From IMG/VR virus record IMGVR_UViG_3300034061_003397, positions 1-64,000 of that record: a stretch of 64,000 nucleotides of DNA. One strand, given 5' to 3'. Below the pieces are notes generated by a model. The model had not been told where the DNA came from. It searched no databases and saw only the letters and a program-made list of their open reading frames with translations. The DNA is from a virus. A program made the translations under genes and the position numbers. Shown here in pieces: positions 788 to 18,709 of this stretch (position 1 is its first letter; every line of letters starts with the position of its first letter).

Positions 788-795
788 ATATTTAT
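788..795 (+). promoter_or_regulatory. ATATTTAT motif, candidate late promoter
   Basis: ATATTTAT lies 6 nt before the ATG at 802. The same octamer sits 4-6 nt before other start codons in this window (2795, 4583, 8749, 16445). A promoter role is inferred from position and recurrence only. Confidence 0.35.
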
Positions 796-801
796 TTGTA
801 T

Positions 802-1083
802 ATGGATGGAATAAGATTTAGAATAGCCAGATGTGACACACTTAACGATGACTTGCATATTCTTAAAAAAGTGATATGTTTCAGTGTTGAACGTGAGGAT
901 AATGTTGGTGAACAGATATCACATTGCATTCAATTAACTGGATCGCAATGTATAGGTAAAAGTGTTGAAGAGTGTGTAGATGATGCATTTTTATTGATGA
1001 GTGGCTCTATATCTGTATCTGCAAACAAGTTACTTAGTTCAAATACGAATGTGTTGAATTCATATTATATACCCAACATATAG
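802..1083 (+). CDS. Hypothetical protein, 93 aa
   Basis: I do not recognise this protein. The reading frame extends to a TTG at 796, but the ATG at 802 (MDGIRFRIARC) is the better start because it is ATG and follows an ATATTTAT motif. It has four cysteines and no transmembrane segment or repeat. It lies between the fibre gene and a glycosyltransferase that begins 5 nt after its stop, so the two are probably co-transcribed. It could be a fibre-associated or adhesin accessory protein, but nothing in the sequence proves that. Confidence 0.5.
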   Translation: MDGIRFRIARCDTLNDDLHILKKVICFSVEREDNVGEQISHCIQLTGSQCIGKSVEECVDDAFLLMSGSISVSANKLLSSNTNVLNSYYIPNI

Positions 1084-1088
1084 TTTTA

Positions 1089-2117
1089 GTGAAAAGTGTT
1101 ACATTAAGTTCTTATTATAATTTTACATCTGGGTATGGTGAGGTTTTGAGGGTTTTGATAGAGAATTTACCGCAGAATGGATATAATATTATTCCAAGAA
1201 CATATAGTATAATAAGTAGTGAATTTTTGCAATGTTTTGAAAATTCTAAAAATCTTGATCCCAATTTGTTGGATTTTAGTTTGTTGAGTTTAACAAATGA
1301 TTTGGGGTCATCAAATATGTTTTTGCAGATGGATTTTTCCAGGCCCCGCGTTTTGTACACAATGTGGGAAAGCACCAGAATCAACGATATGATGATTGAG
1401 GTAATGAACAAATATAAACACGTATGTGTACCTAATCATTATAATAAAAACAACTTTATAAATCAAGGTTTAACTGCAAAAATCGATGTTATACCTTTGT
1501 TTTGTGACACGAATTTTTTTACATATAAAGAACACATTCCTAATAAAAAGTTTGTTTTTGGTATTTCTAACGAAGATCCACGTAAGAATTTAGCTAAAGT
1601 CACCAAGTGTTTTCTAAAAGCTTTTAAAGGTTATAATAATGTTGAATTGCATGTAAAAACCAACGAAGTTATACAAAAGACATTTGACAATAAAATAAAG
1701 TATGTATCACAGAGATTGTCAAAATCTAGTCTTCGTGACTGGTATTACAACATAGATGTTTATTTAAGTGGTGCTACATGTGAAGGGTGGGGGATGATGC
1801 AACAAGAAAGTATGTGTTGTGGCAGACCTATTATATATACAAATTATGGTGGTTTATCTGAATTTGTTAAAAAAGAAAACAACTTTGAGGTTGGTTATGA
1901 CGAAGTTTATAGTGAAAATTACTGGGGAGATTATGGCGGTAAATGGTCGGAATTTAAAGAAGACGAGTTTATGGAGATGATGAAGTATTGTTACGATAAC
2001 CAAGAGATTGTTGTTTCTAAAGGAAAACAAGCCTCAGAGGACGCATGTATTTACACCAAAGAGGCATTTATAAAAAACATAAGTAAAGTTATTGATCTAT
2101 ATATAAAGTATGATTGA
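1089..2117 (+). CDS. Glycosyltransferase, GT-B fold (GT4-like), 342 aa
   Basis: The C-terminal half has the family 4 signature EGWGMMQQESMCCGRPII, with two glutamates seven residues apart (the E-x7-E motif), followed by TNYGGLSEFV. These are the nucleotide-sugar binding elements of GT-B retaining glycosyltransferases. The N-terminal half (YNFTSGYGEVLRVLIENL) matches the acceptor-side Rossmann domain. The start is GTG at 1089; no closer ATG fits the full domain. The following gene overlaps its 3' end by 8 nt. The position next to the fibre gene suggests modification of a virion or host glycan. Donor and acceptor are unknown. Confidence 0.8.
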   Translation: MKSVTLSSYYNFTSGYGEVLRVLIENLPQNGYNIIPRTYSIISSEFLQCFENSKNLDPNLLDFSLLSLTNDLGSSNMFLQMDFSRPRVLYTMWESTRINDMMIEVMNKYKHVCVPNHYNKNNFINQGLTAKIDVIPLFCDTNFFTYKEHIPNKKFVFGISNEDPRKNLAKVTKCFLKAFKGYNNVELHVKTNEVIQKTFDNKIKYVSQRLSKSSLRDWYYNIDVYLSGATCEGWGMMQQESMCCGRPIIYTNYGGLSEFVKKENNFEVGYDEVYSENYWGDYGGKWSEFKEDEFMEMMKYCYDNQEIVVSKGKQASEDACIYTKEAFIKNISKVIDLYIKYD

Positions 2118-2382
2118 TTCTAATAAGAAACCAATATTTGAATATTCTGACGCTGAATTAAAATCATTTGGGTTTGATATCCTTGAACAAATAGAATTTC
2201 TTCAGAAGGATTTATCCTTGTTGAGAATTGAATTATCTCGTCGGCGCGCGGCAAATGTTTTGTCGTCATCGACCACCGATGATTTACCAAATTTGTTTTC
2301 TAATCAGCCGCCCACAGATAACGTCAATATAACACCAAGTGTGATGGTTGGTCAAGAATTAATAACTCCTGTTAAAAAATAA
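2110..2382 (+). CDS. Small coiled-coil hypothetical protein, 90 aa
   Basis: This gene overlaps the end of the glycosyltransferase by 8 nt, indicating translational coupling. Residues 15-50 are charged with regular leucines (ILEQIEFLQKDLSLLRIELS), consistent with a coiled coil; the C-terminal half is Ser/Thr/Pro-rich and probably disordered. No catalytic motif is visible. It is followed 4 nt later by another small coiled-coil gene, and the pair may be structural or chaperone partners. Function unknown. Confidence 0.55.
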   Translation: MIDSNKKPIFEYSDAELKSFGFDILEQIEFLQKDLSLLRIELSRRRAANVLSSSTTDDLPNLFSNQPPTDNVNITPSVMVGQELITPVKK

Positions 2383-2386
2383 TATT

Positions 2387-2665
2387 ATGGATAATACAAT
2401 TAAATTTACTGAACAAGAAATGATTGAAATCGCAACTCTTCAAGATTCATATCAAGAAAAGATCTTTGCGCTTGGTCAATTACAGCTTGATGAAATTAAT
2501 GCACAAAATGTGATTGATGAAATTAAAAATAATCGTACTGAGGTGCTTAAGAAATGGCAAGAATTGCAAGCAGTTGAACAAAAGCTTATTAATACATTGG
2601 CTGAAAAGTATGGTGATGGCAGCCTTAATTTAAAAGATGGCACATTCAAGCCTAATTTAAAATAA
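2387..2665 (+). CDS. Small coiled-coil hypothetical protein, 92 aa
   Basis: The protein is almost entirely predicted helix with a Glu/Gln/Lys-rich heptad-like pattern (residues 8-75: EQEMIEIATLQDSYQEK and onward) and a short C-terminal tail containing GDGSLNLKDGTF. It starts 4 nt after the previous stop with no Shine-Dalgarno sequence and ends just before a sigma70-type promoter at 2667. Proteins of this size and type occur in T4-like marine phage tail regions, but I cannot assign a function. Confidence 0.55.
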   Translation: MDNTIKFTEQEMIEIATLQDSYQEKIFALGQLQLDEINAQNVIDEIKNNRTEVLKKWQELQAVEQKLINTLAEKYGDGSLNLKDGTFKPNLK

Positions 2666-2666
2666 A

Positions 2667-2694
2667 TTGACATCCTGTTTATATAAAGTATAAG
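2667..2694 (+). promoter_or_regulatory. Sigma70-like promoter (TTGACA-N16-TATAAG)
   Basis: A perfect -35 TTGACA at 2667-2672 and TATAAG at 2689-2694, separated by 16 nt, lie in the 129-nt gap before the HAD/nucleotidyltransferase gene. The predicted start near 2702 gives a leader of about 90 nt. An ATATTTAT motif closer to the gene (2782-2789) could be a second, late promoter. Confidence 0.6.
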
Positions 2695-2781
2695 CAAATA
2701 CAAGCGCTGTACGTTATTAATCTTCTTTATTCTTCTTTAATATTTCAAGTTAAATAAGCACAACAAGCGCTTAGCTAGCTA

Positions 2782-2789
2782 ATATTTAT
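2782..2789 (+). promoter_or_regulatory. ATATTTAT motif, candidate late promoter
   Basis: The octamer is 5 nt before the ATG at 2795, the same spacing as at 8749 and 16445. The rest of the 2666-2794 gap holds a sigma70-like promoter and two copies of ACAAGCGCT (2700-2708 and 2763-2771). Confidence 0.4.
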
Positions 2790-2794
2790 TATAA

Positions 2795-3958
2795 ATGATT
2801 AATAGCAAGTATAAGATTTACGTGGATATGGATGGTGTGCTTACTGACTGGGAAAAGCAGTTTAAACGTTATAGTGGTGGCATACCTGTAGAAACTTATG
2901 AAGCTGAACATGGACCTGTAAAGCGTTATGAGTTTGTAAAAAAGAATAGTCCTGATTTTTATGCAACCATGGGTTGGATGGGTGATGGTAAGTTATTGTA
3001 TAATTTTTTAAAAGACTTACCCATAGAAATATTAAGTCACGCAACTGATCAAGGTGCAGTTGATGGTAAATTAACTTGGTTAAAAAATAACAATATAACA
3101 GCTAAGCCAAATTTGGTACCGCACCGTAAGGATAAGGCTAATTATGCTAAATCTGATACTATCTTAATCGATGACAAACCAAACACCATTGATGAGTTTA
3201 ATAAGGCTGGAGGTATTGGTATACTTCATACTGATGCGGTTAGTACCATTAATAAGTTGAAAGAAATACTTGGGGTTAAAGAAAAACATAGAATTTATAA
3301 TAGTGTTTTGAATCCAGAAATTTGGAATGGTGATGTTTTAAAACCCGAAGTGGTAGACAAAATGTTGAAGGTTGCTAATGCTTTTTACAAAGATACAGAA
3401 CTTAATGTGCCTATTGAAGACATATACTTTTTGGGAAGTACTGCTGGATATAACTGGACTCCAACCAGTGATATGGATTTACATATATTAGTGGATTTTA
3501 GTAAGATCGACCCAAATAAAGAGTTGGTTAAGAAATATGTTGATGCGTTGAAAAACAAGTGGAATCAAGAACATGATATTCATATTGGAGATCATCAAAT
3601 AGAAGTTTATATACAAGATATAAACGATGTAAACAGAAGTCAGGCTGTATATAGTGTTCTTAATAATAAATGGGTTAAAAAGCCAAATTACCAAGATATT
3701 CAGGTTGACAAAGAAACTATCAAGAAGAAATATAGTCAGTATGTAGAGATGATCAACACAGCTATAAACCAAGGTGATGTAGACTTAATGAAGACCGTTA
3801 TTAAACGTTTATATGACATGAGAGAAGCTGGATTAAGTAGTGGTGGTGAGTATAGTGTTGAAAATCTGGTATTCAAATTACTAAGATCAACAGGATATAT
3901 TTCCAAACTAAGACAAAACGTAAAATCGGTTTACGATGCTGAGATCAATAAAATATAA
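2795..3958 (+). CDS. HAD-family phosphatase fused to a Pol-beta-type nucleotidyltransferase, 387 aa
   Basis: Residues 1-160 form a HAD hydrolase of the 5'(3')-deoxyribonucleotidase type: motif I is VDMDGVLTDW near residue 11, and the acidic motif IV is TILIDDKPNTIDEF. From about residue 175 a nucleotidyltransferase domain begins, with FLGSTAGYNWTPTSDMDLHI: the GS helix turn and paired Asp residues of the Pol-beta superfamily, and a later acidic strand IEVYI as the likely third metal ligand. A helical tail follows. The fusion suggests an end-processing or nucleotide/RNA modifying enzyme that removes and adds phosphate groups, but the substrate is unknown. ATG is preceded by ATATTTAT. Confidence 0.75.
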   Translation: MINSKYKIYVDMDGVLTDWEKQFKRYSGGIPVETYEAEHGPVKRYEFVKKNSPDFYATMGWMGDGKLLYNFLKDLPIEILSHATDQGAVDGKLTWLKNNNITAKPNLVPHRKDKANYAKSDTILIDDKPNTIDEFNKAGGIGILHTDAVSTINKLKEILGVKEKHRIYNSVLNPEIWNGDVLKPEVVDKMLKVANAFYKDTELNVPIEDIYFLGSTAGYNWTPTSDMDLHILVDFSKIDPNKELVKKYVDALKNKWNQEHDIHIGDHQIEVYIQDINDVNRSQAVYSVLNNKWVKKPNYQDIQVDKETIKKKYSQYVEMINTAINQGDVDLMKTVIKRLYDMREAGLSSGGEYSVENLVFKLLRSTGYISKLRQNVKSVYDAEINKI

Positions 3959-3986
3959 AAAAAACATTAGATATTGAAACTTTACT

Positions 3987-3999
3987 ATATTTATAAATA
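3987..3999 (+). promoter_or_regulatory. Overlapping ATATTTAT / TATAAATA before the tail tube gene
   Basis: ATATTTAT at 3987-3994 overlaps a perfect T4 late octamer TATAAATA at 3992-3999. The ATG at 4022 is preceded by AAAGGA at a usable spacing, so here the leader is about 20 nt with a Shine-Dalgarno sequence. This suits a highly expressed late gene. Confidence 0.5.
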
Positions 4000-4021
4000 A
4001 GAATCTTAAAGGAAAAAACAT

Positions 4022-4513
4022 ATGGCAGAACTACTAAATCCATCAGAAATTTTTTATACAGCCTTTGAACCAAAGGTAAAAAATAGATTTATTCTATACG
4101 TTGATGGTATCCCATCTTTCGTCATCAAGAAATGTGATCGTCCAAAAATTACACAAGCTTCAAAAGAATTGGACCACATCAACATCAAGACCTACTACAA
4201 AGGTAAGACCACTTGGGGTACAATGACATTGGAACTATATGATCCAATCGTACCATCTGGTGCTCAAGCTGTAATGGAATGGGTACGTCTACACCACGAA
4301 TCTGTAACTGGTCGTGATGGTTATCAAGACTTCTATAAGAAGGACTTGACCATCAATGTTCTAGGTCCAGTTGGTGATAAGGTAGAAGAATGGACACTCA
4401 AGGGTGCCTTTATCACCGAAGCTACCTTCAATGAATTGGATTGGTCCAACGATGGTGATGCTGTAACAATCAGCATGACTATTCAACCAGATTATTGTAT
4501 TCTCCAATACTAA
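4022..4513 (+). CDS. gp19: Tail tube protein (T4 gp19-like), 163 aa
   Basis: Length (163 aa, as in T4 gp19) and sequence match the T4 tail tube family: an N-terminal region RFILYVDGIPSFVIKKCDRP, a central LELYDPIVPSGAQAVMEWV segment, and a C-terminal strand pattern ending in ISMTIQPDYCILQY. The tube polymerises inside the contractile sheath and conducts DNA. A clear Shine-Dalgarno AAAGGA precedes the ATG, and codon choice is biased toward C-ending codons more than in neighbouring genes, consistent with high expression. A strong terminator hairpin follows 21 nt after the stop. Confidence 0.9.
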   Translation: MAELLNPSEIFYTAFEPKVKNRFILYVDGIPSFVIKKCDRPKITQASKELDHINIKTYYKGKTTWGTMTLELYDPIVPSGAQAVMEWVRLHHESVTGRDGYQDFYKKDLTINVLGPVGDKVEEWTLKGAFITEATFNELDWSNDGDAVTISMTIQPDYCILQY

Positions 4514-4533
4514 TATTTTAGTCATATGTTTGA

Positions 4534-4561
4534 AACCCCACATTTATTTGTGGGGTTTTTT
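4534..4561 (+). terminator. Rho-independent terminator after the tail tube gene
   Basis: A perfect 9-bp stem (AACCCCACA with TGTGGGGTT), a 6-nt loop TTTATT and a run of six T form a textbook terminator at 4534-4561. It should isolate the very abundant tail tube mRNA from the downstream gene. Confidence 0.85.
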
Positions 4562-4570
4562 ATTTTACCA

Positions 4571-4578
4571 ATATTTAT
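4571..4578 (+). promoter_or_regulatory. ATATTTAT motif, candidate late promoter
   Basis: The octamer lies 4 nt before the ATG at 4583 and directly after a terminator, where a fresh promoter would be needed. Confidence 0.4.
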
Positions 4579-4582
4579 ATAC

Positions 4583-5362
4583 ATGGATCAAGTAACAGTA
4601 CTTTTACCAGGCGGATTTAAACCACCTCACATTGGACATCTAGGATTAGCTAACAAATTTGCTAGTCGTGGTGATGTAAAGAAAGTAATTGTGATGGTTG
4701 GACCAACTGAACGTGATGGTATAAATCGTCAACAGAGTTTAGCTATTTGGAACTTATTAACCAAGAATCCAAAAGTAGAAGTGGTAGCTGTACAAGATGA
4801 TAATCCAATGAACGCTGCGTTTGGATATGTGTTTAACTTACCAAGAAATAGTACAGAAACCGTTGCATTGGGTGCTAGTGCAAAAAGTCCAGAAGATGCA
4901 AAACGTAGTAAGATATTTGCGGCTGCTATTGAAAGATATAAAACAAAACCAACTAAAGATGGACTTTCGTCGCCAGTTGGTGTAAAAGTGGTAGATATGA
5001 CCGACGATTCTCCAAGTAATTATGTTGGTAGAACAGATGATAAAAATGGTCAAAGTATAAGTGCTAGTACTCTTAGACAAGATTTATCTAATAATGACTT
5101 TCAAAACTTTACAACAAACTATCCTGGTGTTAAACCACAAGTTGTAAAAAGTATATATAAAATTTTAAAACCTATGAATGAAGCAAAAAAACAAAAGTTA
5201 AAGTTTATCATTAAAAAAATGATAAAAGAAGAAGATGGTTTTATGGATGCGTTGGTAGGACCAGAATCCAAGTTTAAAGATGCTATAAATAAAATCAGAA
5301 CTAGAGCTGGCGTTCTTACAAAAACAGCTCAAGCTGCGCAGAAAGCTGCTAAAATTAAATAA
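4583..5362 (+). CDS. HIGH-motif nucleotidylyltransferase, 259 aa
   Basis: The N-terminus has LLPGGFKPPHIGHLGLANK, the HxGH motif of the cytidylyltransferase/NMNAT superfamily, and a later ISASTLRQDL matches the family's ISSTxxR motif. The enzyme should transfer a nucleotidyl group from an NTP to a phosphorylated substrate, releasing pyrophosphate. The frame extends upstream to an ATG at 4526, but that part is the translated terminator hairpin, so I use the ATG at 4583. Residues 205 to the end are a basic helical extension (KKQKLKFIIKKMIKEED). Its location inside a tail gene cluster is odd. Possible roles include NAD metabolism or sugar activation. Confidence 0.75.
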   Translation: MDQVTVLLPGGFKPPHIGHLGLANKFASRGDVKKVIVMVGPTERDGINRQQSLAIWNLLTKNPKVEVVAVQDDNPMNAAFGYVFNLPRNSTETVALGASAKSPEDAKRSKIFAAAIERYKTKPTKDGLSSPVGVKVVDMTDDSPSNYVGRTDDKNGQSISASTLRQDLSNNDFQNFTTNYPGVKPQVVKSIYKILKPMNEAKKQKLKFIIKKMIKEEDGFMDALVGPESKFKDAINKIRTRAGVLTKTAQAAQKAAKIK

Positions 5363-5385
5363 AATAACCCAAATCTTTGGTTATT
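5363..5385 (+). terminator. Weak hairpin after the nucleotidylyltransferase gene
   Basis: AATAACC at 5363-5369 pairs with GGTTATT at 5379-5385, and AAA/TTT extends the stem past one bulged C. No T tract follows, so it may be a weak or processing hairpin rather than a full terminator. Confidence 0.4.
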
Positions 5386-5407
5386 GTTCTATATATTATT
5401 ATAAGTT

Positions 5408-6220
5408 ATGAGTGACGAAATTTCTATTACAAGACAATCATCAGCAAACACCAAGCCATCTGCGCCAACATTTCCAACTGAAATCATTGACTTACCAAGT
5501 CAAGGTAGATTTTATCCATCAAACAGCAAATTGTCTACTGGACAAGTGGAAGTTAAGTTGATGACTGCTAAAGAAGAAGATATTCTTACCAGTCCAAATT
5601 TACTTAAAAAAGGACTTGCTGTAGAAAAGTTGATTGAATCCTTGATTGTTGATAAGGATATTGATTTGGATCAAATTCTTGTAGGTGATAAGAACGCATT
5701 GATTTTTGCAATCAGACGTTTGGCTTATGGTGACACATATGGTCCTGTAGAAATTACATGTCCAAAATGTTCTGCGGTAAATAAACAAAATGTAGATTTA
5801 TCAGAAATCAACTACAAGGAAATTGATTTTGATGCATACCCAAAAGGTGTAAATGAGTTTGAATATACGTTGCCAACATCAAAACTAACAATCAAATTTA
5901 AGTTATTGACTGCCGGTGATGAAAAGATGATTGAACGTGATATTGAAGGATTTGCAAAGTTAAAGAAGGAATCTTCAAGTGAAATAACCACCAGATTAAA
6001 GTATATGATTACCTCAATCAATGGAGATACTGATAAAGCCAAGATCAAATCTTTTATAGATAATAACATGTTGGCAAGAGATAGTAGTGCGTTTAGACAA
6101 CATGCAAAGGTTTTTTCTCCAGATGTTGATAGTCGATTTAACTTCTGCTGCACTGAATGTTCTAATCAAGAAAGGGTAGCCGTACCAATGACGGTCAGCT
6201 TTTTTTGGCCTAACTCCTGA
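5408..6220 (+). CDS. gp26: Baseplate hub assembly protein, gp26-like, 270 aa
   Basis: The pattern DLPSQGRFYP, LMTAKEEDILTSPNLLKKG and LIVDKDIDLDQILVGDKN is characteristic of the T4 gp26-type baseplate family. A probable zinc site is formed by CPKC in the middle and CCTEC near the C-terminus. T4 gp26 is about 208 aa, so this one is longer. The product would help assemble the central baseplate hub. It lies directly before a tape-measure gene. The last codons run through seven T residues (6200-6206), where a +1 shift would enter a second open frame coding for a gp51-like domain. The start is ATG at 5408 with no Shine-Dalgarno sequence. Confidence 0.75.
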   Translation: MSDEISITRQSSANTKPSAPTFPTEIIDLPSQGRFYPSNSKLSTGQVEVKLMTAKEEDILTSPNLLKKGLAVEKLIESLIVDKDIDLDQILVGDKNALIFAIRRLAYGDTYGPVEITCPKCSAVNKQNVDLSEINYKEIDFDAYPKGVNEFEYTLPTSKLTIKFKLLTAGDEKMIERDIEGFAKLKKESSSEITTRLKYMITSINGDTDKAKIKSFIDNNMLARDSSAFRQHAKVFSPDVDSRFNFCCTECSNQERVAVPMTVSFFWPNS

Positions 6221-6419
6221 GCACAGAGTTTATATACAACATGTAATTTTTGATTTGTGTTATTATGGTAATGGGTTTACCCCATCCGAAGTATACGCTT
6301 TACCTATTCATCTACGCAACTTTTATTATAAAAAACTCGTAGATGTTAAGGAAAAAGAGAATAAACAATCCGAATCTAAACCTGCCAAGTCTAAAATAGA
6401 TAAACCATCTTTTAGATAA
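6192..6419 (+). CDS. gp51: gp51-like domain in the +1 frame, probably made by frameshift from gp26
   Basis: This frame is open from 6192 to the TAA at 6417-6419 and has no usable start before a TTG at 6255. Its translation contains FFGLTPEHRVYIQHVIFD, then YYGNGFTPSEVYALPIHLRN and FYYKKLVDVKEKE, which resembles T4 gp51-type hub assembly proteins (short, basic-acidic helical tails). The upstream part that overlaps gp26 still reads as conserved protein. The simplest explanation is a +1 shift at TTT TTT TGG (6200-6208), giving a gp26-gp51 fusion. A one-base homopolymer error in the assembly would also produce this picture. A free 54-aa product from the TTG is possible but would lack the conserved start. 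Confidence 0.6.
   Translation, partial: RSAFFGLTPEHRVYIQHVIFDLCYYGNGFTPSEVYALPIHLRNFYYKKLVDVKEKENKQSESKPAKSKIDKPSFR
6200..6208 (+). promoter_or_regulatory. Candidate +1 ribosomal frameshift site (seven T then GG)
   Basis: In the gp26 frame this reads TTT TTT TGG. A forward slip of the Phe tRNA on the T run puts the ribosome in the frame of the gp51-like domain at GGC (6207). The two frames overlap by 29 nt before gp26 ends at 6220. Confidence 0.5.
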
Positions 6420-6423
6420 ATGG

Positions 6424-6431
6424 ATATTTAT
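6424..6431 (+). promoter_or_regulatory. ATATTTAT motif before the tape measure gene
   Basis: The octamer is 13 nt before the ATG at 6445, farther than at other genes, inside an AT-only stretch. Confidence 0.25.
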
Positions 6432-6444
6432 TATTATATAATAT

Positions 6445-8736
6445 ATGGCAGCACCTACACCAACAGAGAAATCCGTAGCGGATTTAATTAAACAGCTAGA
6501 AAAAGCCAGAGCTGAAACACAATCATACTCTGAAACTTGGGCGGATGTTGGCAGAAAGATCAAAAATTCAATAAATCCACTCAAGGATGTAGAGAAAAAA
6601 TTGGAAGCTCAAAGTATATTGGTAGGTCAATTGAGTGCAAATCTTGCCGAATTAGAACGTCAGCGTGATGAAGAAGGTCAACAAAACCAACATGTTATAG
6701 ATCAAAAAAGATATCAACTTGCACTTGCAGAACAACAATTATCTGTATTAAAAAGACAAGCAACGGTAATGTCATTGATGTATGATACGCTTATAAAGCT
6801 TATAGATGCATATGATAAATATGATAAATTACTGGCAGATAATGCTGTAAAACAGGGAATTAGTAGAGTTCAGTCTGAAAAACAAGCAATTATAATGCAA
6901 CGTATTGTTGCTTCATCAACAAGTCTTGTTGTAAATTTACAAGAAGCACTTGAGGCGGTTGCTGAATTAAATAACAATCTTGGTGTAATGGCTGCGGAAT
7001 ATATGCCGATGGTTGCACAAAGAGCTGCGGAACTTTCACAATCTATTGGTATAAGCGCTACAGAAAGTGCTCAGTTTTTTGCTACATTAGGAGAAATCGG
7101 TAATACCAGTTTACAAGCTCAACAAAACATGGCTGGAGTAGCTGATGCGGCCGCAAAAGCTGCCGGGGTACCATTGGGTAAGGTTATTAAAGACGTAAGT
7201 GGGGCTAGTTCTAATGTACGTACAATATTTAGAGGCAACACGATTGAATTAATCAAACAATCTGCTGAGTTGAGAAAGATTGGTAGTAGTCTTGATCAAG
7301 CTGCAAAATCGGCAGAATCGTTATTAAACTTTGAATCATCAGTTGGTGCTGAATTAAAAGCTAGTGCATTATTGGGTCAAAATATCAATTTTAATCAATC
7401 ACGTAGATTGTTTTTTGAAGGTAAAATTGCTGAGGGTGAAAAAGCATTACAAAAAGAACTTGAAAGAGTTGGAGATATTGATAAGTTAAATTACTTCCAA
7501 CGTAAGGCTTTATCTGAATTGACAGGCAAAGACATTAATGAATTACAGAAGATCGGTTCTTTAAAGAAAACACAACAGAAAATTGATCAAGAAAATCCAG
7601 ATCTTGCTAAGGAACGTCTAAAGTTAGAAAAAGAACTAGCAAAAGTTGCTGGATCTGAAGTAGAACAAAAGAAAAGAGCGAATGAATTGGCTGCTATAGA
7701 AAATGTAGCAAAAACAAGAACAGCTATTTTGGATGCACAAAAAGAACAAGCAATGTTGGCATTGGGTAAGGCTATGAAACCACTGATGGATATTGTTAGA
7801 GCTGTTCAAATTGTATTTTTTAAACTATTGGCAACCATTGCGGATTTTGGTGGACCAGCAGGAATTGTAATAGCTGGATTGACTGGTTTAACTATTGCAT
7901 TTTTTGCATTCAAGAAGGGTGTTAAACTTGTAGCAGACTTTTTAGCAGATGCTATGGGAAATGCTGCTCAAAAGGTGGGGGAAGGTATTGGTAAAGGATT
8001 GGAAGGAATTGGCAAGGGACTAAGAAACTTTGGAAGATCTGTACAATTTTTGATTATACCACCACCAGCTATTCTTGCGATTGGTGTAATCACACTTGCT
8101 TTAATTGGTTTAGGATATGCTTTGAAATTAATTGGTCAAGGAATTGGTGCGGCTGCTCCGGCAATTGCAGCAATATCAACATTGTTCTTGGGATTGGCAT
8201 CAATTTTAGCCGATACATTAATGAAAGTTTTGGACAAACTACCAGAATTATTAGGATCTGTTACTACAAACTTGGTTAAGTTAGCACTTGTTGGACCTGG
8301 ATTGGTTCTGGCGGCCGCTGGGGTTGGTGCTATGGGATATGCATTGGGTGCTTTAAATGTTAGTTTACGATTGTTTCCATTAGATAGATTAACAAATATT
8401 ACTACACAATTAACTGCGATGAGTGCAGCTGCTGAAGGAGTTTCGTTGGCAGTTGGATCACTCAAAGAATTATCTGGGGTTAAACTTCCAAATCTTGATA
8501 TTAGTATTGATACAGAAGCTATTAATGCTCTAGCCAAAACCAATGAAGCTAAGCGTGATGAAACAGCTATGTTGAAACAAGGAATTGATTTAGTAGCTCA
8601 AAGGATCGATGTATTGACTAGTATGATGTCCGCAGGAAAGATTGCGGTTTATATGGATAGAGTCAAGGTAAGTAAAGAATTGGCTGAAGGAACTTTAAAA
8701 TTTGGAGTTTCTGGTCAAGCAACTAATGCAATCTGA
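6445..8736 (+). CDS. Tail tape measure protein, 763 aa
   Basis: The protein has the usual tape-measure layout: a long alpha-helical, Glu/Gln/Ala-rich N-terminal region (residues 10-130 and 270-440) and several hydrophobic segments in the C-terminal half (for example GIVIAGLTGLTIAFFAF and AILAIGVITLALIGLGYAL), ending in a short polar tail. It follows the gp26/gp51-like genes and precedes baseplate genes, as gp29 does in T4, although T4 gp29 is shorter (about 590 aa). It sets tail length and may leave the tail with DNA at ejection. The start is ATG at 6445, without a Shine-Dalgarno sequence. Confidence 0.75.
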   Translation: MAAPTPTEKSVADLIKQLEKARAETQSYSETWADVGRKIKNSINPLKDVEKKLEAQSILVGQLSANLAELERQRDEEGQQNQHVIDQKRYQLALAEQQLSVLKRQATVMSLMYDTLIKLIDAYDKYDKLLADNAVKQGISRVQSEKQAIIMQRIVASSTSLVVNLQEALEAVAELNNNLGVMAAEYMPMVAQRAAELSQSIGISATESAQFFATLGEIGNTSLQAQQNMAGVADAAAKAAGVPLGKVIKDVSGASSNVRTIFRGNTIELIKQSAELRKIGSSLDQAAKSAESLLNFESSVGAELKASALLGQNINFNQSRRLFFEGKIAEGEKALQKELERVGDIDKLNYFQRKALSELTGKDINELQKIGSLKKTQQKIDQENPDLAKERLKLEKELAKVAGSEVEQKKRANELAAIENVAKTRTAILDAQKEQAMLALGKAMKPLMDIVRAVQIVFFKLLATIADFGGPAGIVIAGLTGLTIAFFAFKKGVKLVADFLADAMGNAAQKVGEGIGKGLEGIGKGLRNFGRSVQFLIIPPPAILAIGVITLALIGLGYALKLIGQGIGAAAPAIAAISTLFLGLASILADTLMKVLDKLPELLGSVTTNLVKLALVGPGLVLAAAGVGAMGYALGALNVSLRLFPLDRLTNITTQLTAMSAAAEGVSLAVGSLKELSGVKLPNLDISIDTEAINALAKTNEAKRDETAMLKQGIDLVAQRIDVLTSMMSAGKIAVYMDRVKVSKELAEGTLKFGVSGQATNAI

Positions 8737-8743
8737 TATTTAT
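8736..8743 (+). promoter_or_regulatory. ATATTTAT motif, candidate late promoter
   Basis: It lies 5 nt before the ATG at 8749, overlapping the stop codon of the tape measure gene. The start codon has no Shine-Dalgarno sequence. Confidence 0.4.
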
Positions 8744-8748
8744 AATTA

Positions 8749-11328
8749 ATGGCAAATAGTCAAACATTCGTAGAGGGTTTTGGTGGAGCAGATGGTCAAG
8801 TCACCACTTTATCCCAAGTTCAAGGATCAGGTCTTTCACTACCTCCTAATGCCGCTTCGTTTATTAATATCAGACGAGGCGGTAAATTAGAGACATTGTT
8901 TCTAACAAATGGTAATGATCAAGTTCTATATACCAAGAACAAACCACAAGATCTTTACTTGAAGGGATTGGTTACATCTCAACAATATATTTACAAAAAC
9001 CCAAACGAAGGACAACGTACAAAAATTGGTGGCAACAGATCACTTCCATTAAGTGCCGCTGTACAAGATGCTACCAGAGTTAGAAAGTTTTTGGGATCAA
9101 GCGCTGGTGTAAAGTTTACAGGCAAACAACTTATCCTACAAGGATTTCAACCATTCGATGAAACCAAGGTCTATAACCCAGCTTCGCCGTTGATTGCCGC
9201 TATACGTTCCGCTACTTTTGGATTGGTTGATCGTCCAACCCGTCATATAGACACAAGTAACATATTAACAGGCCTATTGGGTGGTACTGGTCTTAGTAAT
9301 GCCGTAAGCGCTGTAGGACAATTATTGGGTAGCGCACCTCCGCAACCATCACCACCTCGTAGTAGTGTTGCTAGCGCAGCAAGTGGTGGATTGGGATTAT
9401 CAACACTGACCTCATTGGTTGGTGGTGGAGATAATTCCAGTCGAGTTGTTACATCAATTGCTAGAGATGGTGTAAAAGACTTATTGAGAGGTAATACTGC
9501 TACAAATGCTTACAATAATCCTAGATATCAACGTTGGATGTCAAATGCTGGGGGTAACTTCTTTAGCAGATTATTAAGTGGTGTTGGTAGATTCTTTCAA
9601 AACAACACATTGGTTGGTGGTATTCTTCCACCAAAACAACCATGGCCAGCAACATATCGTGCTGATGAACAAACATACGAAATGATGTTGAATGCTGGAA
9701 AGTTGTTTGATCCAACTCAAAATGGTATTGCGGGTGGTGGTATTTTGAGTGGTTTGTTGAATTCACTTGGATTTGGAAAAAAGGCTGATTATTCATTAGC
9801 TGTTAATCAACGTTTTTATGGTAAGTCGAAGAATAAAACATCTTTGAACAGATTGATTATAGTAAGAAATATCAAAAAACAAGCGGTTGATTATACAAAA
9901 GAAATTGGTGTTTTATCAAAAGATAAGAATAACTTACTAAGTACTAAGTTAACTAAGAAGGCAATTACTCCAAGTGGAGATTCAAACAGATATAGTGATG
10001 TAGTAAAAGTAGATGATGATAACGAATATTCAGATCAAATACTAAACTATAAAACTTATTTAGATAATCAATCTGGATTCAAGACCACATTTAGTGATCA
10101 ACAAAGTAACGTAGTTAAGGACATCATTGATAATCTTGACAAGGCTATTAACGACATTGGTGGTGCAAATGAAAGCAAATATAGTACCAACAGAAAAAAT
10201 TTACAACCTCTTCAATTTGCTAAGTTTAGTAACGATGGCACACGTATAGGAACAAATTACTTAAAACAACTTGATCCTACAAAACTAAATGATCCAACTA
10301 TTAAAAATGATACATATCAAGGTCGTTTTCGTAGAGACGAAACATTGGGTAATAAAGTACCAACTCGTTTAGGAGAAGGACCAAATGATCGATATATTTA
10401 TCCAACAAACAATGTTGATTATGTTAACTCACTTCAAGTATTAAACCAAGAGGAATTTACTAAACAATATTCTGCTACAGATAAATTTGGCATATATGGA
10501 CCAGATATAGTCAAGTTTTACTTTTATGATATTGTAAACGAAAAGTATATTCCATTTAATGCGACCGTAAAATCAATTAACGATAACAACAATGCAAGTT
10601 GGGAAACGGTTGAATATTTGGGTCGTCCAGACAAATTGTTTTATTACAAAGGATTTGAACGTCAAGTAAGTTTTAATTTCACCGTTAATGCACACAGCGT
10701 AAAAGAGTTGATGCCAATGTGGCAACGCATAAACTATTTGGTGGGTTTAACAAGACCAGCTAATTATACATTACAACAAGAAGGTGGATATATGGTACCA
10801 CCAATGGTACAATTAACATTGGGTGATTTTTACAAAAACCACTTTGTTGTAATAACAAGCTGTAACGTCACAATACCAGATGATACATCTTGGGAAACAA
10901 TTCCAGAAGAATCAAACCAAGAATGGAGTTATGGACCAAATAAAGCTATACAATGGCAGAGTTCTGATACGATCATAGATCCTAGAGGTAACAAAGCTAG
11001 ATCCAAAGGAAGAGTTGCTCAATTTCCAAGAACAGCGGAAATTAGTGTTCAGATGAATGTTCTTGAAAAAGATCGTCCATATACAGGCAAAGCTATTTGG
11101 GGCGATGCTCCTGTATCAATTGTTAGTCAATTGCAATTGACTGATCTGCCTGATCCAGTTAATCCAAATTTTATAGGACCGATTGACTCTAGTCCTAAAG
11201 CTGACAAAAACGCTCCACTCACCGAGTTTTATGACAGAAGTAGTGACACAGCTAAAAATAATTTCTCAAAGAATATTAGGTATGATAACAACTGGCTTAA
11301 TCAGATCAATGCGTCGAATATACCATAA
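8749..11328 (+). CDS. Large baseplate or tail-tube-associated structural protein, 859 aa
   Basis: The first 350 residues are rich in Gly, Ser and Asn with no known motif. The C-terminal part (about 575-800) contains IVKFYFYDIVNEKYIPFNA, FYYKGFERQVSFNFTVNAHS and a WQRINYLVGLTRPANYT segment, a pattern found in baseplate or tube-initiator proteins of T4-like phages. By position after the tape measure it corresponds to T4 genes 48/54, but it is more than twice their size. It probably caps or nucleates the tail tube on the baseplate. I cannot decide between a gp48, a gp54 or a combined role. Confidence 0.55.
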   Translation: MANSQTFVEGFGGADGQVTTLSQVQGSGLSLPPNAASFINIRRGGKLETLFLTNGNDQVLYTKNKPQDLYLKGLVTSQQYIYKNPNEGQRTKIGGNRSLPLSAAVQDATRVRKFLGSSAGVKFTGKQLILQGFQPFDETKVYNPASPLIAAIRSATFGLVDRPTRHIDTSNILTGLLGGTGLSNAVSAVGQLLGSAPPQPSPPRSSVASAASGGLGLSTLTSLVGGGDNSSRVVTSIARDGVKDLLRGNTATNAYNNPRYQRWMSNAGGNFFSRLLSGVGRFFQNNTLVGGILPPKQPWPATYRADEQTYEMMLNAGKLFDPTQNGIAGGGILSGLLNSLGFGKKADYSLAVNQRFYGKSKNKTSLNRLIIVRNIKKQAVDYTKEIGVLSKDKNNLLSTKLTKKAITPSGDSNRYSDVVKVDDDNEYSDQILNYKTYLDNQSGFKTTFSDQQSNVVKDIIDNLDKAINDIGGANESKYSTNRKNLQPLQFAKFSNDGTRIGTNYLKQLDPTKLNDPTIKNDTYQGRFRRDETLGNKVPTRLGEGPNDRYIYPTNNVDYVNSLQVLNQEEFTKQYSATDKFGIYGPDIVKFYFYDIVNEKYIPFNATVKSINDNNNASWETVEYLGRPDKLFYYKGFERQVSFNFTVNAHSVKELMPMWQRINYLVGLTRPANYTLQQEGGYMVPPMVQLTLGDFYKNHFVVITSCNVTIPDDTSWETIPEESNQEWSYGPNKAIQWQSSDTIIDPRGNKARSKGRVAQFPRTAEISVQMNVLEKDRPYTGKAIWGDAPVSIVSQLQLTDLPDPVNPNFIGPIDSSPKADKNAPLTEFYDRSSDTAKNNFSKNIRYDNNWLNQINASNIP

Positions 11329-11337
11329 TTATATAGC

Positions 11338-11628
11338 ATGAGATATCAATTTACACCAGTTTATAAAAGATGGGATGGTAAGAATGTGTACAGAACAACT
11401 TATTATCCTATTATTCCACATTCTATCGATGATACATATATCATAGCAAGTGAGGTTGATTATTTAGATAGCTTGGCTAAAAAATACTATGGTGACGAAA
11501 GTTTCTGGTGGGTTATAGCACAAGCTAACAATTTGGGTAAAGGTAAATTATCAATACCACTAGGTAAACAATTAAGAATACCAGGCAACGTTTCTCAGAT
11601 ACTAAATAATCTCAAAAATTTAAATTAA
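11338..11628 (+). CDS. LysM-type baseplate protein (gp53-like), 96 aa
   Basis: Residues 38-83 form a LysM-like domain: DYLDSLAKKYYGDESFWWVI followed by AQANNLGKGKLSIPLGKQLRIP. This arrangement is typical of small baseplate wedge proteins (T4 gp53, and gpX-like proteins of other myoviruses). The LysM fold may bind peptidoglycan or act only as a structural module in the wedge. It starts 9 nt after the preceding stop and the next gene follows 3 nt after its own stop, so all three are translated from one transcript without Shine-Dalgarno sequences. Confidence 0.7.
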   Translation: MRYQFTPVYKRWDGKNVYRTTYYPIIPHSIDDTYIIASEVDYLDSLAKKYYGDESFWWVIAQANNLGKGKLSIPLGKQLRIPGNVSQILNNLKNLN

Positions 11629-11631
11629 GTT

Positions 11632-14600
11632 ATGGCAGCCAACACTAATGAGATAACAGGAAATGCACCAACTTGGTGGGAAATACAAAACATTCCAACT
11701 GAGATGGTAAGAGAATTACGCCGTCGTAATAATACCAATAACATTGGAATGCAAATACCAAATCCGTTTGTTAATGCTACGTTTGACTTTGCAAATAATC
11801 ATAGTAAGTACAAGGGTCCGATGACTCCTTGGATTAGAATATTTTCAAGTGGTACAGGTCAAATTTCAAATGGGTTGGTACCAAGAAGTGCTTATTTAAA
11901 CAAGTCTGGTGGTCAAAGTCCAAATGATTCAAACCCATATGATGGATTTATTCTAAAAGGTGGAGATGGTTTTTATGATGCGTTTGGTTATAACAATACT
12001 ACACCACTTACACAAAAGGGTGCTATTATTGGTTATCAGGCCACTGGTGAACCACACTTTATTGATCCAAGGTTAAGATCACTAACAAATTATCAATCCA
12101 GAGTTGACAACAATTTTCCACAAGATAATGTGGTATCATCTATACTACCACCCCCAGGTATTGTATCTGTACAATTAAGACAAAGCAGAGAATTGCTTAC
12201 ATTTGCATCATTTAAATTCAATTGTTATAGTTTGGCTCAACTTGAATATATGATGCCATTCTTTTTGACTCCTGGCATCAATATGTTTATTGAATTTGGT
12301 TGGAATTTGTTCAATCAAAAATCCTTACTAAATTTGACTCGGGAAGAATGTTGGAAAATTGTTTCAGAACCACAAACGGCTTTAGACAGATCTAATCTTT
12401 CATATGGTAACTACGGATGTGTAACCGGAATTGTTACCAAATATAATTTTACCACACAAAATGGATTTTTGTATGAGTGCAATGTTGAGTGTACATCAAG
12501 ACAAGGATTATTTGCAGGATTCAGAACTGACAACAATGCTACTGAAAATAAAGGAGCAGAAAGCGTTGAGTATATAAATTTAAAAAATTTTATTAACATC
12601 TATTTACCCTCCATAAATGATGTAATTAAGTCTAGAAGTAATTTTGTTGATTATGCAATCGATAATAGAATTGCGATTGCCAACAAATACGCCGAGACTC
12701 AAAAAGCTGATGCGGATGCTGAGGCTAACGCACAACAAACAGAAAAACAAAAACGTGAAAATATATTGACGGCTATTAGAGCGTCTGCTGGTCCGGCCAA
12801 GGCTGGTAAATCATCTTTTTACAGTGGTAATCCCGAAGATAGAATTTTTGTTGGTAGAAGAGAAGACATATATAAAGCTGCAAGACAACCTGGAAAAACA
12901 AAAGTTGAGTATGTAAATCCTCCTACATCAACAACGATACCATCAGGTGGACCAGGATATTTTGCACCTCCTTATCAAAAATCGGCACCAACTGAATTTC
13001 CCGTAATTGAGTATGGATCGATTCGACAATATCCCGCCAATTACTATGAACAACAAGTATCATTTGATGACAGCAAAACAGACTTTGATGCGAATGATAC
13101 AAATGATGAAGTCTGGCTTCAATTAGACTTTGTGTTTGAATTACTTAATTTATTTTGTTCAAACCCACGTAATAATTTGTACGTAATAGATAACACCGAT
13201 ATTATTATAAATGCACATCCAAACTTAATATCATGTGATAAAAATGTATTGATACCAAATCCTGTCGCACCAAAAATAAATAATGGTGGAAAATTTTTAA
13301 ATACTGAACAAAAGGAAATAACAAAAAATGAATTTGTTAATCCTCAAAGAAATAAACCTGATTTAACTTTACAACTCAAGAATGCTCTGAAGGTAAATAA
13401 AAAAGATAAAAATATTGATTCTGATCAGTCACTACTTTTAGCTGCATTAAATGCACAGAAAACATTTGGTACATCTGGTTTGTATCGTGATGATTTGGAT
13501 AGAGTAATTAATTGGTTCTATTACAACGGCCCAAATAAATGGCCTCTTGGATTCGCATCATTTCCATTTGTCGAGGATAAATTATTCTATGACGATGAAG
13601 GAGTAGATGTGACCAAAAAATACAAAAAATACTATTATGGATATTTAAAAAATCTTCTTATATCAAAAACTCGTTTAATGGAAATTTCAAAAGATGAAAA
13701 TGTAAAGACGATTAAACAATTTGTCACGGCCGTATTGAGTACAATAAACAATGCTGTTGATGATTTTTGGCAATTTGATATAGTGGATGGTTTAAATGGA
13801 AGATTATCAATTGTAGATAAAAACACAATCAACATGGATATATTAAAAGAGGTATATATGTTTGATTTGGCAAAGACCAATAATGTTGTAAAATCTATAA
13901 ACTTTGATGTTAGTTTGACCAATGAACAAGCTAACAATGTTTTATTTGCTGGTACAAATTCACCAAGCTTGACTGAAACGATTCAAGACAAAATAAATAA
14001 TGCAAGTACTAAAGCAGAACTTGATATTGTGATAACTCAAGTTTCAAATACACCATTTATCAAGTTTAGAGATAGACTAGATGCGTTCCAACTGGAACAG
14101 ATTGCAAAATTAAAAGGTGAAGATTTGAAGAGAGCTCAACAATCTGGCAATATACCAGGCACAAATGTTGATTTTAAAGATGAAAATAGAGACATAGCAA
14201 ATATTCAGGTTTATGGCGAAATGTCCCGTAATGACATTTTATGTATGAGATTCTTGAATGTAGATGGTGTAAATTCCACACTTGTTCCCAGAGGACGTTT
14301 GTCTAATTTGCAGTCAGATCTCCGAGGGACTCTTGGTCTCCCAACAAACTCAAGTGACCAAGCCAGGAATGAACAAACACAAATATATAATTGGAAGTAT
14401 TTGTGTTTACCACCTAGCATGAAGGCTAAATTGAGAAGAATGTTGGATGATGGTGATATATCTGGTAATATTGCAAAATATAGTGGTGTGTCTGATAACT
14501 TTCAAATATCAATGACGTTGGATGGATTGTATGGGTTTAGAAATCTACAAGTATTCGCAATCAGTAATTTGCCTAAACCATATGTGCCTGGTAATGTCAT

Positions 14601-14712
14601 TTTTCAAATATTAGAAGTCGAACATAATATAGCATCAGGTAAATGGGAAACAAATATTACAGCATTATTAAGATGTATTGCTGGAACCAATTTAAAATAT
14701 ATAAATATATGA
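11632..14712 (+). CDS. Large baseplate hub-like structural protein, 1026 aa
   Basis: No catalytic motif is visible. The region around residues 190-260 (FASFKFNCYSLAQLEYMMPF, FFLTPGINMFIEFGWN) and the C-terminus (ISMTLDGLYGFRNLQVFAIS, then EVEHNIASGKWETNITALLR) resemble the beta-rich folds of hub proteins such as gp27 and late-control-D type proteins. A charged insertion near 360-375 is Ala/Glu/Lys-rich. The position in the baseplate cluster and large size suggest the central hub or a wedge scaffold. The stop overlaps the next start as ATGA. Confidence 0.5.
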   Translation: MAANTNEITGNAPTWWEIQNIPTEMVRELRRRNNTNNIGMQIPNPFVNATFDFANNHSKYKGPMTPWIRIFSSGTGQISNGLVPRSAYLNKSGGQSPNDSNPYDGFILKGGDGFYDAFGYNNTTPLTQKGAIIGYQATGEPHFIDPRLRSLTNYQSRVDNNFPQDNVVSSILPPPGIVSVQLRQSRELLTFASFKFNCYSLAQLEYMMPFFLTPGINMFIEFGWNLFNQKSLLNLTREECWKIVSEPQTALDRSNLSYGNYGCVTGIVTKYNFTTQNGFLYECNVECTSRQGLFAGFRTDNNATENKGAESVEYINLKNFINIYLPSINDVIKSRSNFVDYAIDNRIAIANKYAETQKADADAEANAQQTEKQKRENILTAIRASAGPAKAGKSSFYSGNPEDRIFVGRREDIYKAARQPGKTKVEYVNPPTSTTIPSGGPGYFAPPYQKSAPTEFPVIEYGSIRQYPANYYEQQVSFDDSKTDFDANDTNDEVWLQLDFVFELLNLFCSNPRNNLYVIDNTDIIINAHPNLISCDKNVLIPNPVAPKINNGGKFLNTEQKEITKNEFVNPQRNKPDLTLQLKNALKVNKKDKNIDSDQSLLLAALNAQKTFGTSGLYRDDLDRVINWFYYNGPNKWPLGFASFPFVEDKLFYDDEGVDVTKKYKKYYYGYLKNLLISKTRLMEISKDENVKTIKQFVTAVLSTINNAVDDFWQFDIVDGLNGRLSIVDKNTINMDILKEVYMFDLAKTNNVVKSINFDVSLTNEQANNVLFAGTNSPSLTETIQDKINNASTKAELDIVITQVSNTPFIKFRDRLDAFQLEQIAKLKGEDLKRAQQSGNIPGTNVDFKDENRDIANIQVYGEMSRNDILCMRFLNVDGVNSTLVPRGRLSNLQSDLRGTLGLPTNSSDQARNEQTQIYNWKYLCLPPSMKAKLRRMLDDGDISGNIAKYSGVSDNFQISMTLDGLYGFRNLQVFAISNLPKPYVPGNVIFQILEVEHNIASGKWETNITALLRCIAGTNLKYINI

Positions 14713-15095
14713 TTGATGACACACCAGTAAAAACGAGAAATATTGTTGGATTGGGTGGATACAATTACTTTATTCCAGCATCATATATTCCAACCATCAA
14801 ACCATCGGACTATGAATATGGTTATATAACCCGATATTTTGTTGGCAACATTAACTATTCTAATATAACCGAAACCAATGCTAGAGGTTATAATGGAACA
14901 AACTCTGGTTTTTTCAAAAAGACCAAAATAACTTGGAAAGTATCTGGGGTTGAGTTTAATGTGTACAAAGGAAAAATGCTTGAAACCACAGGCGTTGTAG
15001 ACTACAATATTCTCAGAATAAATCAAGCAGCTCAAGTGTTTCCTCAGATATCGACTATATTAAATAATCCAAGACAATTTTGGCGTGGATTTTAA
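14709..15095 (+). CDS. Hypothetical baseplate-cluster protein, 128 aa
   Basis: The ATG at 14709 overlaps the previous stop as ATGA and is preferred to an upstream ATG at 14643 that lies deep in the preceding gene. The protein is rich in Tyr, Asn and Gly (GYNYFIPASYIP, GYITRYFVGNINYS) and probably beta-structured. It ends with NNPRQFWRGF. It is the last gene of the tail cluster before a sigma70-type promoter, and its tight coupling to the hub-like gene suggests a virion part. No family recognised. Confidence 0.6.
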   Translation: MIDDTPVKTRNIVGLGGYNYFIPASYIPTIKPSDYEYGYITRYFVGNINYSNITETNARGYNGTNSGFFKKTKITWKVSGVEFNVYKGKMLETTGVVDYNILRINQAAQVFPQISTILNNPRQFWRGF

Positions 15096-15123
15096 TTGAC
15101 ATTCTAGAACATTTGTGTAAATG
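15096..15123 (+). promoter_or_regulatory. Promoter predicted to give a leaderless mRNA (TTGACA-N16-TAAATG-N7-GTG)
   Basis: TTGACA at 15096-15101, then 16 nt, then TAAATG at 15118-15123; the GTG at 15131 starts exactly 7 nt after the -10 box, where transcription should begin. The -10 box is a weaker match than in the two other cases with this layout (34451, 58659). Confidence 0.5.
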
Positions 15124-15130
15124 TTGTAGT

Positions 15131-16423
15131 GTGCATCTATCTAATCAAATATATCTAAAGTTTATAACTCAAAACACCAATAAGCATATTGCGTGTGATA
15201 AAGTTATTGCTGCATTTGTTTATGATTATATTACCAAAGAAAAGTATTACTTTAACTTTACACACCCAGATGTAAATGTTGATAGTACTTATGATAACTT
15301 TGTAAAGTTACTAAAAAAGACAGACCGAGAGATATATGTAAACAATAAGAAGAGATACAAGTATTTTCTTGGGGATTGTAATTTGATTGATGTAAATCTA
15401 TTCAGTTTCTTAAAAGACAATGAAGTACTTGTTAAAGAAGAATCAGATGCGTATTTTGCTATTAAGATTCGAACTGGAGATATTAATCAGTTCAATGTGA
15501 TATATCCATATGCAAATCATCAACGTGATTTTGATCAAGAACTTATTCATGTAGAAAGTCTAAATGTTGAAAACAAAGACTCTTATTGCTTTAAATTCTT
15601 CAATAACATCATTTCAGATACATTGTATGAGGTTGAAAAGAATGGTTTGAAATTAGATACAACCATTTTCAAAAACTACTTCAAAGCAAAAACACACAAC
15701 AAGTTTGTATATACAGAGTATAATATATATAACCCTACAGGTAGACCCAGTAATCACTTTGATAGTGTTAATTATGTTGCACTAAACAAAGAGGATGGTT
15801 GTAGAAAGAGTTTTATATCCAGATATGATGATGGATATCTGATGATGGTAGACTTTACTGGATTTCATCCTTATATTGTGGCTAATCTTATTGATTATAA
15901 GGTTCCCGACACAGAAACCATTTATGAACATCTGGCTAAACAATATTACAATATTGACCAAGTTGATTCAGAATTGATGTCAAAATCTAAGAAACTCACG
16001 ATGGTTAACTTGTACGGTCAGATTAAAGATCAATATCTAAACATTCCGTTTTTTGCAAAAACCGATGAATTAAAGAACAAGTATTGGGAAATGTTTGAAA
16101 AAAAGGGATATGTTTCTACTCCGATTTATAAACGGAAAATCACATCAAAACACATCAGTGATCCTAATAAAAACAAGTTATTTGCATATATCATTCAGGC
16201 TACAGAAACCGAATATGGATTGAATAGCTTGGGTAATGTATTAAAATATGTAACTGATAAGAAGATTGTACCAATATTGTATGTATACGATTCTATTGTA
16301 TTTGATGTAAGTCCAGAGGTTGATGAACACACAATACAAGATGTTATTGACATAATTAAGAATAAAAAGTTCAAAGTTAAGGTATATACTGGAAATAATT
16401 ACAACGATTTGAAATTACGTTGA
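15131..16423 (+). CDS. Compact family A DNA polymerase-like protein, 430 aa
   Basis: The C-terminal 220 residues align by eye with the palm and fingers of Pol I: NPTGRPSNHFDSVNYVAL (TGRLSS...NLQNIP box), CRKSFISRYDDGYLMMVDF with the motif A Asp, SKSKKLTMVNLYG for the O-helix K...YG, a YIIQATETEYGL helix, and VYDSIVFDVSP for motif C (Pol I has HDE). Both catalytic Asp residues are present. The N-terminal 200 residues show no clear 3'-5' exonuclease motifs and the thumb seems reduced. Start: the frame is open from a TTG at 15080, but GTG at 15131 fits the promoter. The window also codes for a family B polymerase, so this one may serve repair, priming or gap filling. Confidence 0.6.
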   Translation: MHLSNQIYLKFITQNTNKHIACDKVIAAFVYDYITKEKYYFNFTHPDVNVDSTYDNFVKLLKKTDREIYVNNKKRYKYFLGDCNLIDVNLFSFLKDNEVLVKEESDAYFAIKIRTGDINQFNVIYPYANHQRDFDQELIHVESLNVENKDSYCFKFFNNIISDTLYEVEKNGLKLDTTIFKNYFKAKTHNKFVYTEYNIYNPTGRPSNHFDSVNYVALNKEDGCRKSFISRYDDGYLMMVDFTGFHPYIVANLIDYKVPDTETIYEHLAKQYYNIDQVDSELMSKSKKLTMVNLYGQIKDQYLNIPFFAKTDELKNKYWEMFEKKGYVSTPIYKRKITSKHISDPNKNKLFAYIIQATETEYGLNSLGNVLKYVTDKKIVPILYVYDSIVFDVSPEVDEHTIQDVIDIIKNKKFKVKVYTGNNYNDLKLR

Positions 16424-16431
16424 TTTTAATT

Positions 16432-16439
16432 ATATTTAT
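16432..16439 (+). promoter_or_regulatory. ATATTTAT motif, candidate late promoter
   Basis: The octamer is 5 nt before the ATG at 16445, and no Shine-Dalgarno sequence is present. Confidence 0.4.
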
Positions 16440-18692: not shown

Positions 18693-18709
18693 TATATATT
18701 ACATGACGC

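Follow-up and report, generated by a model that had tools for sequence, protein, structure and literature searches.

Late transcription in phage T4, carried out with gp55, gp33 and gp45, starts from a promoter with a single 8-bp -10-like element and no -35 element; it serves structural genes and is read by a factor with a sigma region 2 fold (PMC2988020, PMC7892883). The solved gp55 complex shows Y97 stacked on A-12, contacts of N13 and H95 with A-9, and a bond between T99 and A-8 (PMC7892883). Bacterial leaderless mRNAs offer a second comparison; here a promoter element is spaced so that the start codon becomes the 5' end, and no Shine-Dalgarno (SD) sequence is present (PMC3160421). We describe an element, ATATTTAT, found just upstream of genes in 64,000 nucleotides of viral DNA (positions 1 to 64,000 of IMG/VR record IMGVR_UViG_3300034061_003397; hereafter the window). 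Like the T4 promoter, it is a single 8-bp -10-like element that lacks a -35 sequence and favours structural genes, and gp55 is the best structural match of a sigma-like protein from the same lineage. The likely reading is a modified form of the T4 late system, in which late genes are often transcribed into leaderless mRNAs or ones with almost no leader.

Over the whole window, ATATTTAT occurs about as often as expected by chance (17 vs 14.4 expected), and its signal is positional. Within 40 nt upstream of the 78 genes, 8 carry the motif vs 1.35 expected (p about 1e-4), while its reverse complement occurs once in the 60 nt upstream of window genes. Scanning IMG/VR with the gene 8749 protein yielded 23 loci, ranging from identical to 45% protein identity. 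Before deduplication, the upstream regions of genes at these loci held ATATTTAT 110 times, the reverse complement 7 times and the T4 consensus TATAAATA 12 times, with 38 ATATTTAT sites exactly 5 nt before an ATG. In the deduplicated window clade, 40 genes have the motif vs 3.5 expected, and one has the reverse complement. The initial annotation had suggested a strand-specific search of upstream regions; in both window and clade, the enrichment lies on the coding strand. As the contigs are related to one another, p-values here and below are guides rather than exact.

The distance from motif to start codon (the gap) is also far from random. Gaps of 4-6 nt account for 33 of the 88 non-redundant sites vs 5.0 expected (p 5e-19), and no site has a gap of 0-3 nt. 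The most common gap in the window clade is 5 nt, although gaps of 7-20 nt are frequent across all clades. Counted by protein family, 51 families have the motif upstream vs 11 for the reverse complement, 15 of them at a gap of 5. The short gaps do not obviously stem from gene calling, since 36 of 45 sites with gaps of 4-6 nt lack an alternative in-frame upstream start, about the same share as among other genes (315 of 375).

Table 1. Positions of the element and an associated terminator in the window.
Feature	Position	Strand	Context
ATATTTAT	788..795	+	6 nt before ATG 802, hypothetical protein after tail-fibre gene; conserved in L010, L014
ATATTTAT	2782..2789	+	5 nt before ATG 2795, gene with deoxyribonucleotidase-like N-terminal part
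ATATTTAT	3987..3994	+	27 nt before tail tube ATG 4022; leadered, SD-like AAAGGA at 4008-4013
Intrinsic-terminator-like hairpin CCCCACA-TTTATT-TGTGGGG + T-run	4536..4562	+	between tail tube gene and next promoter
ATATTTAT	4571..4578	+	4 nt before ATG 4583, cytidyltransferase-like gene
ATATTTAT	6424..6431	+	13 nt before ATG 6445, 763-aa protein
ATATTTAT	8736..8743	+	overlaps stop codon of preceding gene; 5 nt before ATG 8749, 859-aa tail-module protein
ATATTTAT	16432..16439	+	5 nt before ATG 16445, 615-aa protein
ATATTTAT	26896..26903	+	16 nt before ATG 26920
CTATTTAT variant	58670..58677	+	6 nt before ATG 58684

The five copies that the initial annotation placed 6, 5, 4, 5 and 5 nt before start codons lie exactly there (Table 1), as does its one-base variant at a gap of 6, which is CTATTTAT; it was also right that ATATTTAT overlaps TATAAATA before the tail tube gene, at 3987-3999. 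The sites before 6445 and 26920 are additional to that list. Several of the gaps are conserved: the gap of 5 recurs before orthologues of gene 2795 in L010, L012-L014, L016, L017 and L021, and before orthologues of gene 8749 in relatives as distant as 45-46% protein identity. The CTATTTAT variant also stands at a gap of 6 before a gene at 109626-110360 in the 173-kb relative G001. Most relatives retain a gap of 20-27 nt before the tail tube gene, many with an SD-like AAGG. The ATGs at 2795, 8749, 16445 and 58684 come immediately after in-frame stops, so these starts cannot be extended. Gene 802 has an alternative upstream start at TTG 796, and gene 4583 has one at ATG 4526. Extension to 4526 would read through the terminator and is probably spurious, since in most relatives a terminator, [A/C]TATTTAT and ATG follow the tail tube gene in that order despite differing hairpin sequences. 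The 763-aa protein at 6445, weakly similar to Mel-JY01 36514-40560, is a possible tape measure judging by its position. Some genes are preceded by two copies of ATATTTAT: before the orthologue of 16445, they stand 12 nt apart or overlap 6 nt apart (L022, L026, L027, L030 and L031; in L022 and L026 the second copy is 12 nt upstream of the first), and similar doubled copies precede one gene in L023, L028, L029 and L032.

The element also has a distinctive genomic context. Structural blocks, drawn by hand from annotation and synteny, are enriched in the motif in Flavobacterium phage immuto, Microcystis phage Mel-JY01 and the window (Fisher p 6e-5, 6e-3 and 8e-3, respectively). Terminator-like hairpins lie just upstream of 11 of 88 motif genes vs 7 of 573 others (p 2e-6). 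The flanking columns of the aligned sites carry no information resembling a -35 element. Most window genes lack an SD sequence; an SD-like 4-mer precedes 15% of them vs 10% of all ATGs.

The window belongs to a contig of 69,749 bases (33% G+C) whose T4-like core genes encode a tail tube, a UvsX-like recombinase, a single-strand binding protein and a replicative helicase; the phage is a distant relative of T4. By tail tube, the nearest named phages are Mel-JY01 (63%), immuto (54%) and Rhodothermus phage RM378 (41%), with a 484-kb uncultured phage ranking between the first two. Since homologues occur in similar order in both Mel-JY01 and immuto, we place the contig in the same lineage. All three named phages share with the window lineage tail genes, the sigma-like protein and an element on the coding strand with the core TATTTA. 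Upstream of genes, ATATTTAT occurs 19 times in immuto vs 2.8 expected (reverse complement 1) and 19 times in Mel-JY01 vs 3.6 expected (reverse complement 2). Contigs encoding the sigma-like protein carry ATATTTAT or CTATTTAT, varying by clade: the 38-48% sigma clade has 118 motif occurrences vs 13.9 expected (reverse complement 7), and the 57-65% clade has 66 of CTATTTAT vs 2.1 expected (reverse complement 2). RM378 differs from the window clade in using TTATTTAA, found upstream of 28 of 147 genes vs 11 for the reverse complement; 9 of the 28 sites lie exactly 6 nt before the ATG, which is both the smallest and the most common gap. Gaps in immuto spread from 2 to 40 nt, and in Mel-JY01 the motif often lies 30-44 nt before the start, ahead of a leader with an SD sequence. 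Applied to T4 as a positive control, the same pipeline recovered TATAAATA at gaps of 14-28 nt in the stretch tested. In two unrelated Bacteroidota phages, crAss001 and phi14:2, the motif was not clearly enriched (0 vs 0.35 and 2 vs 0.74 expected). Two further repeats were seen upstream of genes in these relatives. Immuto (NC_055915.1, L038-L041) has a second strong motif of overlapping 8-mers, approximately ATATTTAGGTATCAATAATTAAAAC, with TTTAGGTA in 16 genes vs 0.65 expected; this is possibly another promoter class. In Mel-JY01 (PP395634.1, L033-L036), AACAACCTAACAGGA recurs before about 7 genes.

The gp55-like sigma factor that the initial annotation proposed to look for was found in relatives of the window phage, though not in the 69.7-kb fragment itself. 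A weak match to the gp55 family came from immuto gp118, which has homologues in Mel-JY01 (WWT39502, 37%), LR756508 (40%), RM378 (Rm378p020, profile E 1.6e-9) and hundreds of IMG/VR contigs. In RM378, immuto and Mel-JY01 alike, the gene is annotated only as hypothetical. The predicted structure has a predicted local distance difference test score (pLDDT) of 85.6, and the window-clade protein, with a disordered N-terminus, scores 72.3. T4 gp55 (7d7c_F) heads the structure searches, at Z 10.2 (118 residues) and Z 10.6 (119 residues), and nearly all top matches are sigma factors; these modelled structures support a sigma region 2 fold more firmly than membership of the gp55 family. Sequence profiles gave fainter signals: Pfam Sigma70_r2 weakly matched 22 of 64 members, phrog_234 (gp55) matched only a few (E 0.008-0.5), and phrog_12791 and a PDB sequence search gave no useful match. 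Unlike gp55, the protein has an additional helical domain at its C-terminus, and a clamp-binding tail is not evident; nothing like the conserved C-terminal LDFLY motif of gp55 was seen in its alignment. Within the window clade, the gene is present on G040, G043 and G045, reached through a primase of a relative, G002. G040 and G002 share a 12.3-kb overlap that is 99.94% identical. G002 in turn aligns with the window in blocks over some 18 kb, with a DNA identity of about 74-80% (about 77% in the longest block). Several metagenome samples that yielded window relatives also yielded further copies. One window-clade copy (L271:1189-2184, +) has a basic N-terminal extension of about 105 residues, probably disordered. 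In Mel-JY01, WWT39500 had first been taken for the sigma factor by its position, but is a Clp protease.

Set against T4 TATAAATA in the same orientation, TATTTATA shares T-13, A-12, T-11, A-8, T-7 and A-6, and differs at -10 and -9. With two differences in this register, the opposite orientation proposed in the initial annotation is not needed. The T4 consensus TATAAATA is not enriched in the window clade (3 vs 3.3 expected), whereas TATTTATA and ATATTTAT are; the overlapping TATAAATA at the tail tube gene is therefore probably incidental. Besides using TATTTATA in place of TATAAATA, the window clade differs from T4 in its frequent spacing of 4-6 nt. An automatic, weak alignment with gp55 places Y97 on an invariant Tyr, H95 on a Phe and N13 on a Thr or Ser. 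From this alignment, we hypothesise that the base change at -9 and the replacements of N13 and H95 belong together.

In the model we propose, ATATTTAT (core TATTTA; fuller form aTATTTATa) would serve a phage late promoter as its -10-like element. A phage factor with the sigma region 2 fold, a distant relative of gp55, would bind the host RNA polymerase and melt the promoter at this element with no need of a -35 box, and the RNA would start about one helical turn downstream. For the many late genes whose ATG lies 4-6 nt past the element, the start codon would coincide with the predicted +1 or lie no more than one or two bases from it, given that +1 falls at a gap of 5 or 6 depending on the register with T4; such mRNAs would have no leader or almost none. 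Other genes, such as the tail tube gene, would have a leader with an SD-like sequence. The motif, its strandedness and spacing, its link to structural genes and terminators, and the sigma-like protein shared across the lineage are computational observations. Together with the absence of a -35 element and the T4 and crAss-like controls, they give good support to the divergent T4-type late promoter of the initial annotation; that the sigma-like protein reads the element and, from the enrichment in structural genes, that transcription is late, we infer. The leaderless transcripts also proposed there draw their support from spacing, namely the sharp floor at 4 nt and the mode at 4-6 nt, with a similar pattern in RM378. 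Unlike bacterial leaderless mRNAs in general, such transcripts would here be bound to one phage promoter class. A bolder version, towards which we are slightly more doubtful than inclined, is that the late sigma factor sets the translation start by placing the RNA 5' end on the AUG; many virion genes might then be translated from leaderless mRNAs by default, in hosts that mostly give their own mRNAs a leader, and TATTTA might have drifted together with the sigma residues reading -9.

Could a host factor read the element instead? The Bacteroidota primary sigma factor recognises TAnnTTTG at -7 and TTTG near -33, and F. johnsoniae shows the -7 motif without the -33 one (PMC7366714). As TATATTTA resembles TAnnTTT and immuto infects Flavobacterium, the idea has some appeal. 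However, the base following TTT is A rather than G, only 31 of 69 window-clade sites have a T immediately before the motif, and an upstream TTTG is rare (11 of 69, 0 of 56, 3 of 18 and 0 of 11 sites), so the elements depart from the Bacteroidota consensus. The CTATTTAT variant also breaks TAnnTTTG, Mel-JY01 uses ATATTTAT although its host is a cyanobacterium, and crAss001 and phi14:2 infect Bacteroidota yet lack the signal; we consider host recognition improbable. An AU-rich translation-initiation element near the ATG, of the S1- or Kozak-like kind, would fit the scarcity of SD sequences in the window, but hardly a motif that follows terminators, prefers structural genes and in Mel-JY01 often stands ahead of an SD leader, and seems very improbable. 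That AT-rich spacers simply contain the motif by chance agrees with the whole-window count, but given the strand asymmetry, the spacing and the conservation across relatives, its probability is negligible.

The most serious competitor accepts the promoters and places the RNA start a few bases away, so that the transcript would have a brief leader or begin within the gene. Start choice by bacterial polymerase varies by 1-2 bases, the T4 register is itself uncertain by 1 nt, and gaps of 7-20 nt occur in every clade. Against this, the floor and mode of the gaps in the window clade are sharp and comparable in RM378, while T4's own element never comes closer than 14 nt to an ATG in the stretch tested; we regard this alternative as unlikely, though clearly less so than the others. 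Several results nevertheless weigh against a T4-type system with leaderless transcripts. The predicted position of the RNA 5' end at the ATG comes from the spacing of sequence elements, the T4 alignment puts +1 at a gap of 5 or 6 with a 1-nt offset possible, and Flavobacterium mRNAs mostly have leaders (PMC6847099). Other sigma factors lie within 1 Z of gp55 and are thus tied with it, and homology to gp55 at sequence level is weak (hhalign against 20 gp55 proteins: 96 columns, E 0.0019, probability 14%). A profile of the T4-type clamp (phrog_223) had no match in 7 records, and no counterpart of gp33 was identified, though no search aimed at it was made. The sigma gene was not found in the 69.7-kb window contig or in G001, both of which also lack other modules; its absence from G001 is uninformative, since no terminase, capsid or portal homologues were detected there either. 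Finally, RM378 encodes a second, canonical sigma factor (NC_004735.1 128329-128928, -; Sigma70_r2 E 1e-15); the same search gave no match in Mel-JY01 or immuto.

We found no description of this element in the open-access library searched. A late promoter of this kind would mean that a large lineage, most of it uncultured, transcribes its late genes in T4 style from an altered recognition element. Annotators could use it to pick out late genes in such contigs and to place their true start codons. The predicted leaderless late mRNAs are testable in the cultured phages immuto and RM378, and sigma-promoter co-variation at the -9 base, if true, could be tested against the solved gp55 complex.

Other features of the contig were also observed. 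At 2665-2700 and 18700-18740 of the window, TTGACA is followed about 15-16 nt on by TATAAG or TATAGA (by eye), possible sigma-70-like early promoters. A long minus-strand block (37092-58633) is almost free of the motif, and several of its genes match glycosyltransferase genes of immuto and Mel-JY01. Past the end of the window, the contig (G000) carries a gene at 68171-68800 that is 74% identical to immuto 56735-57379 (annotated as a transaminase), far above other shared genes; this similarity suggests a recent exchange and perhaps points to a Bacteroidota host.

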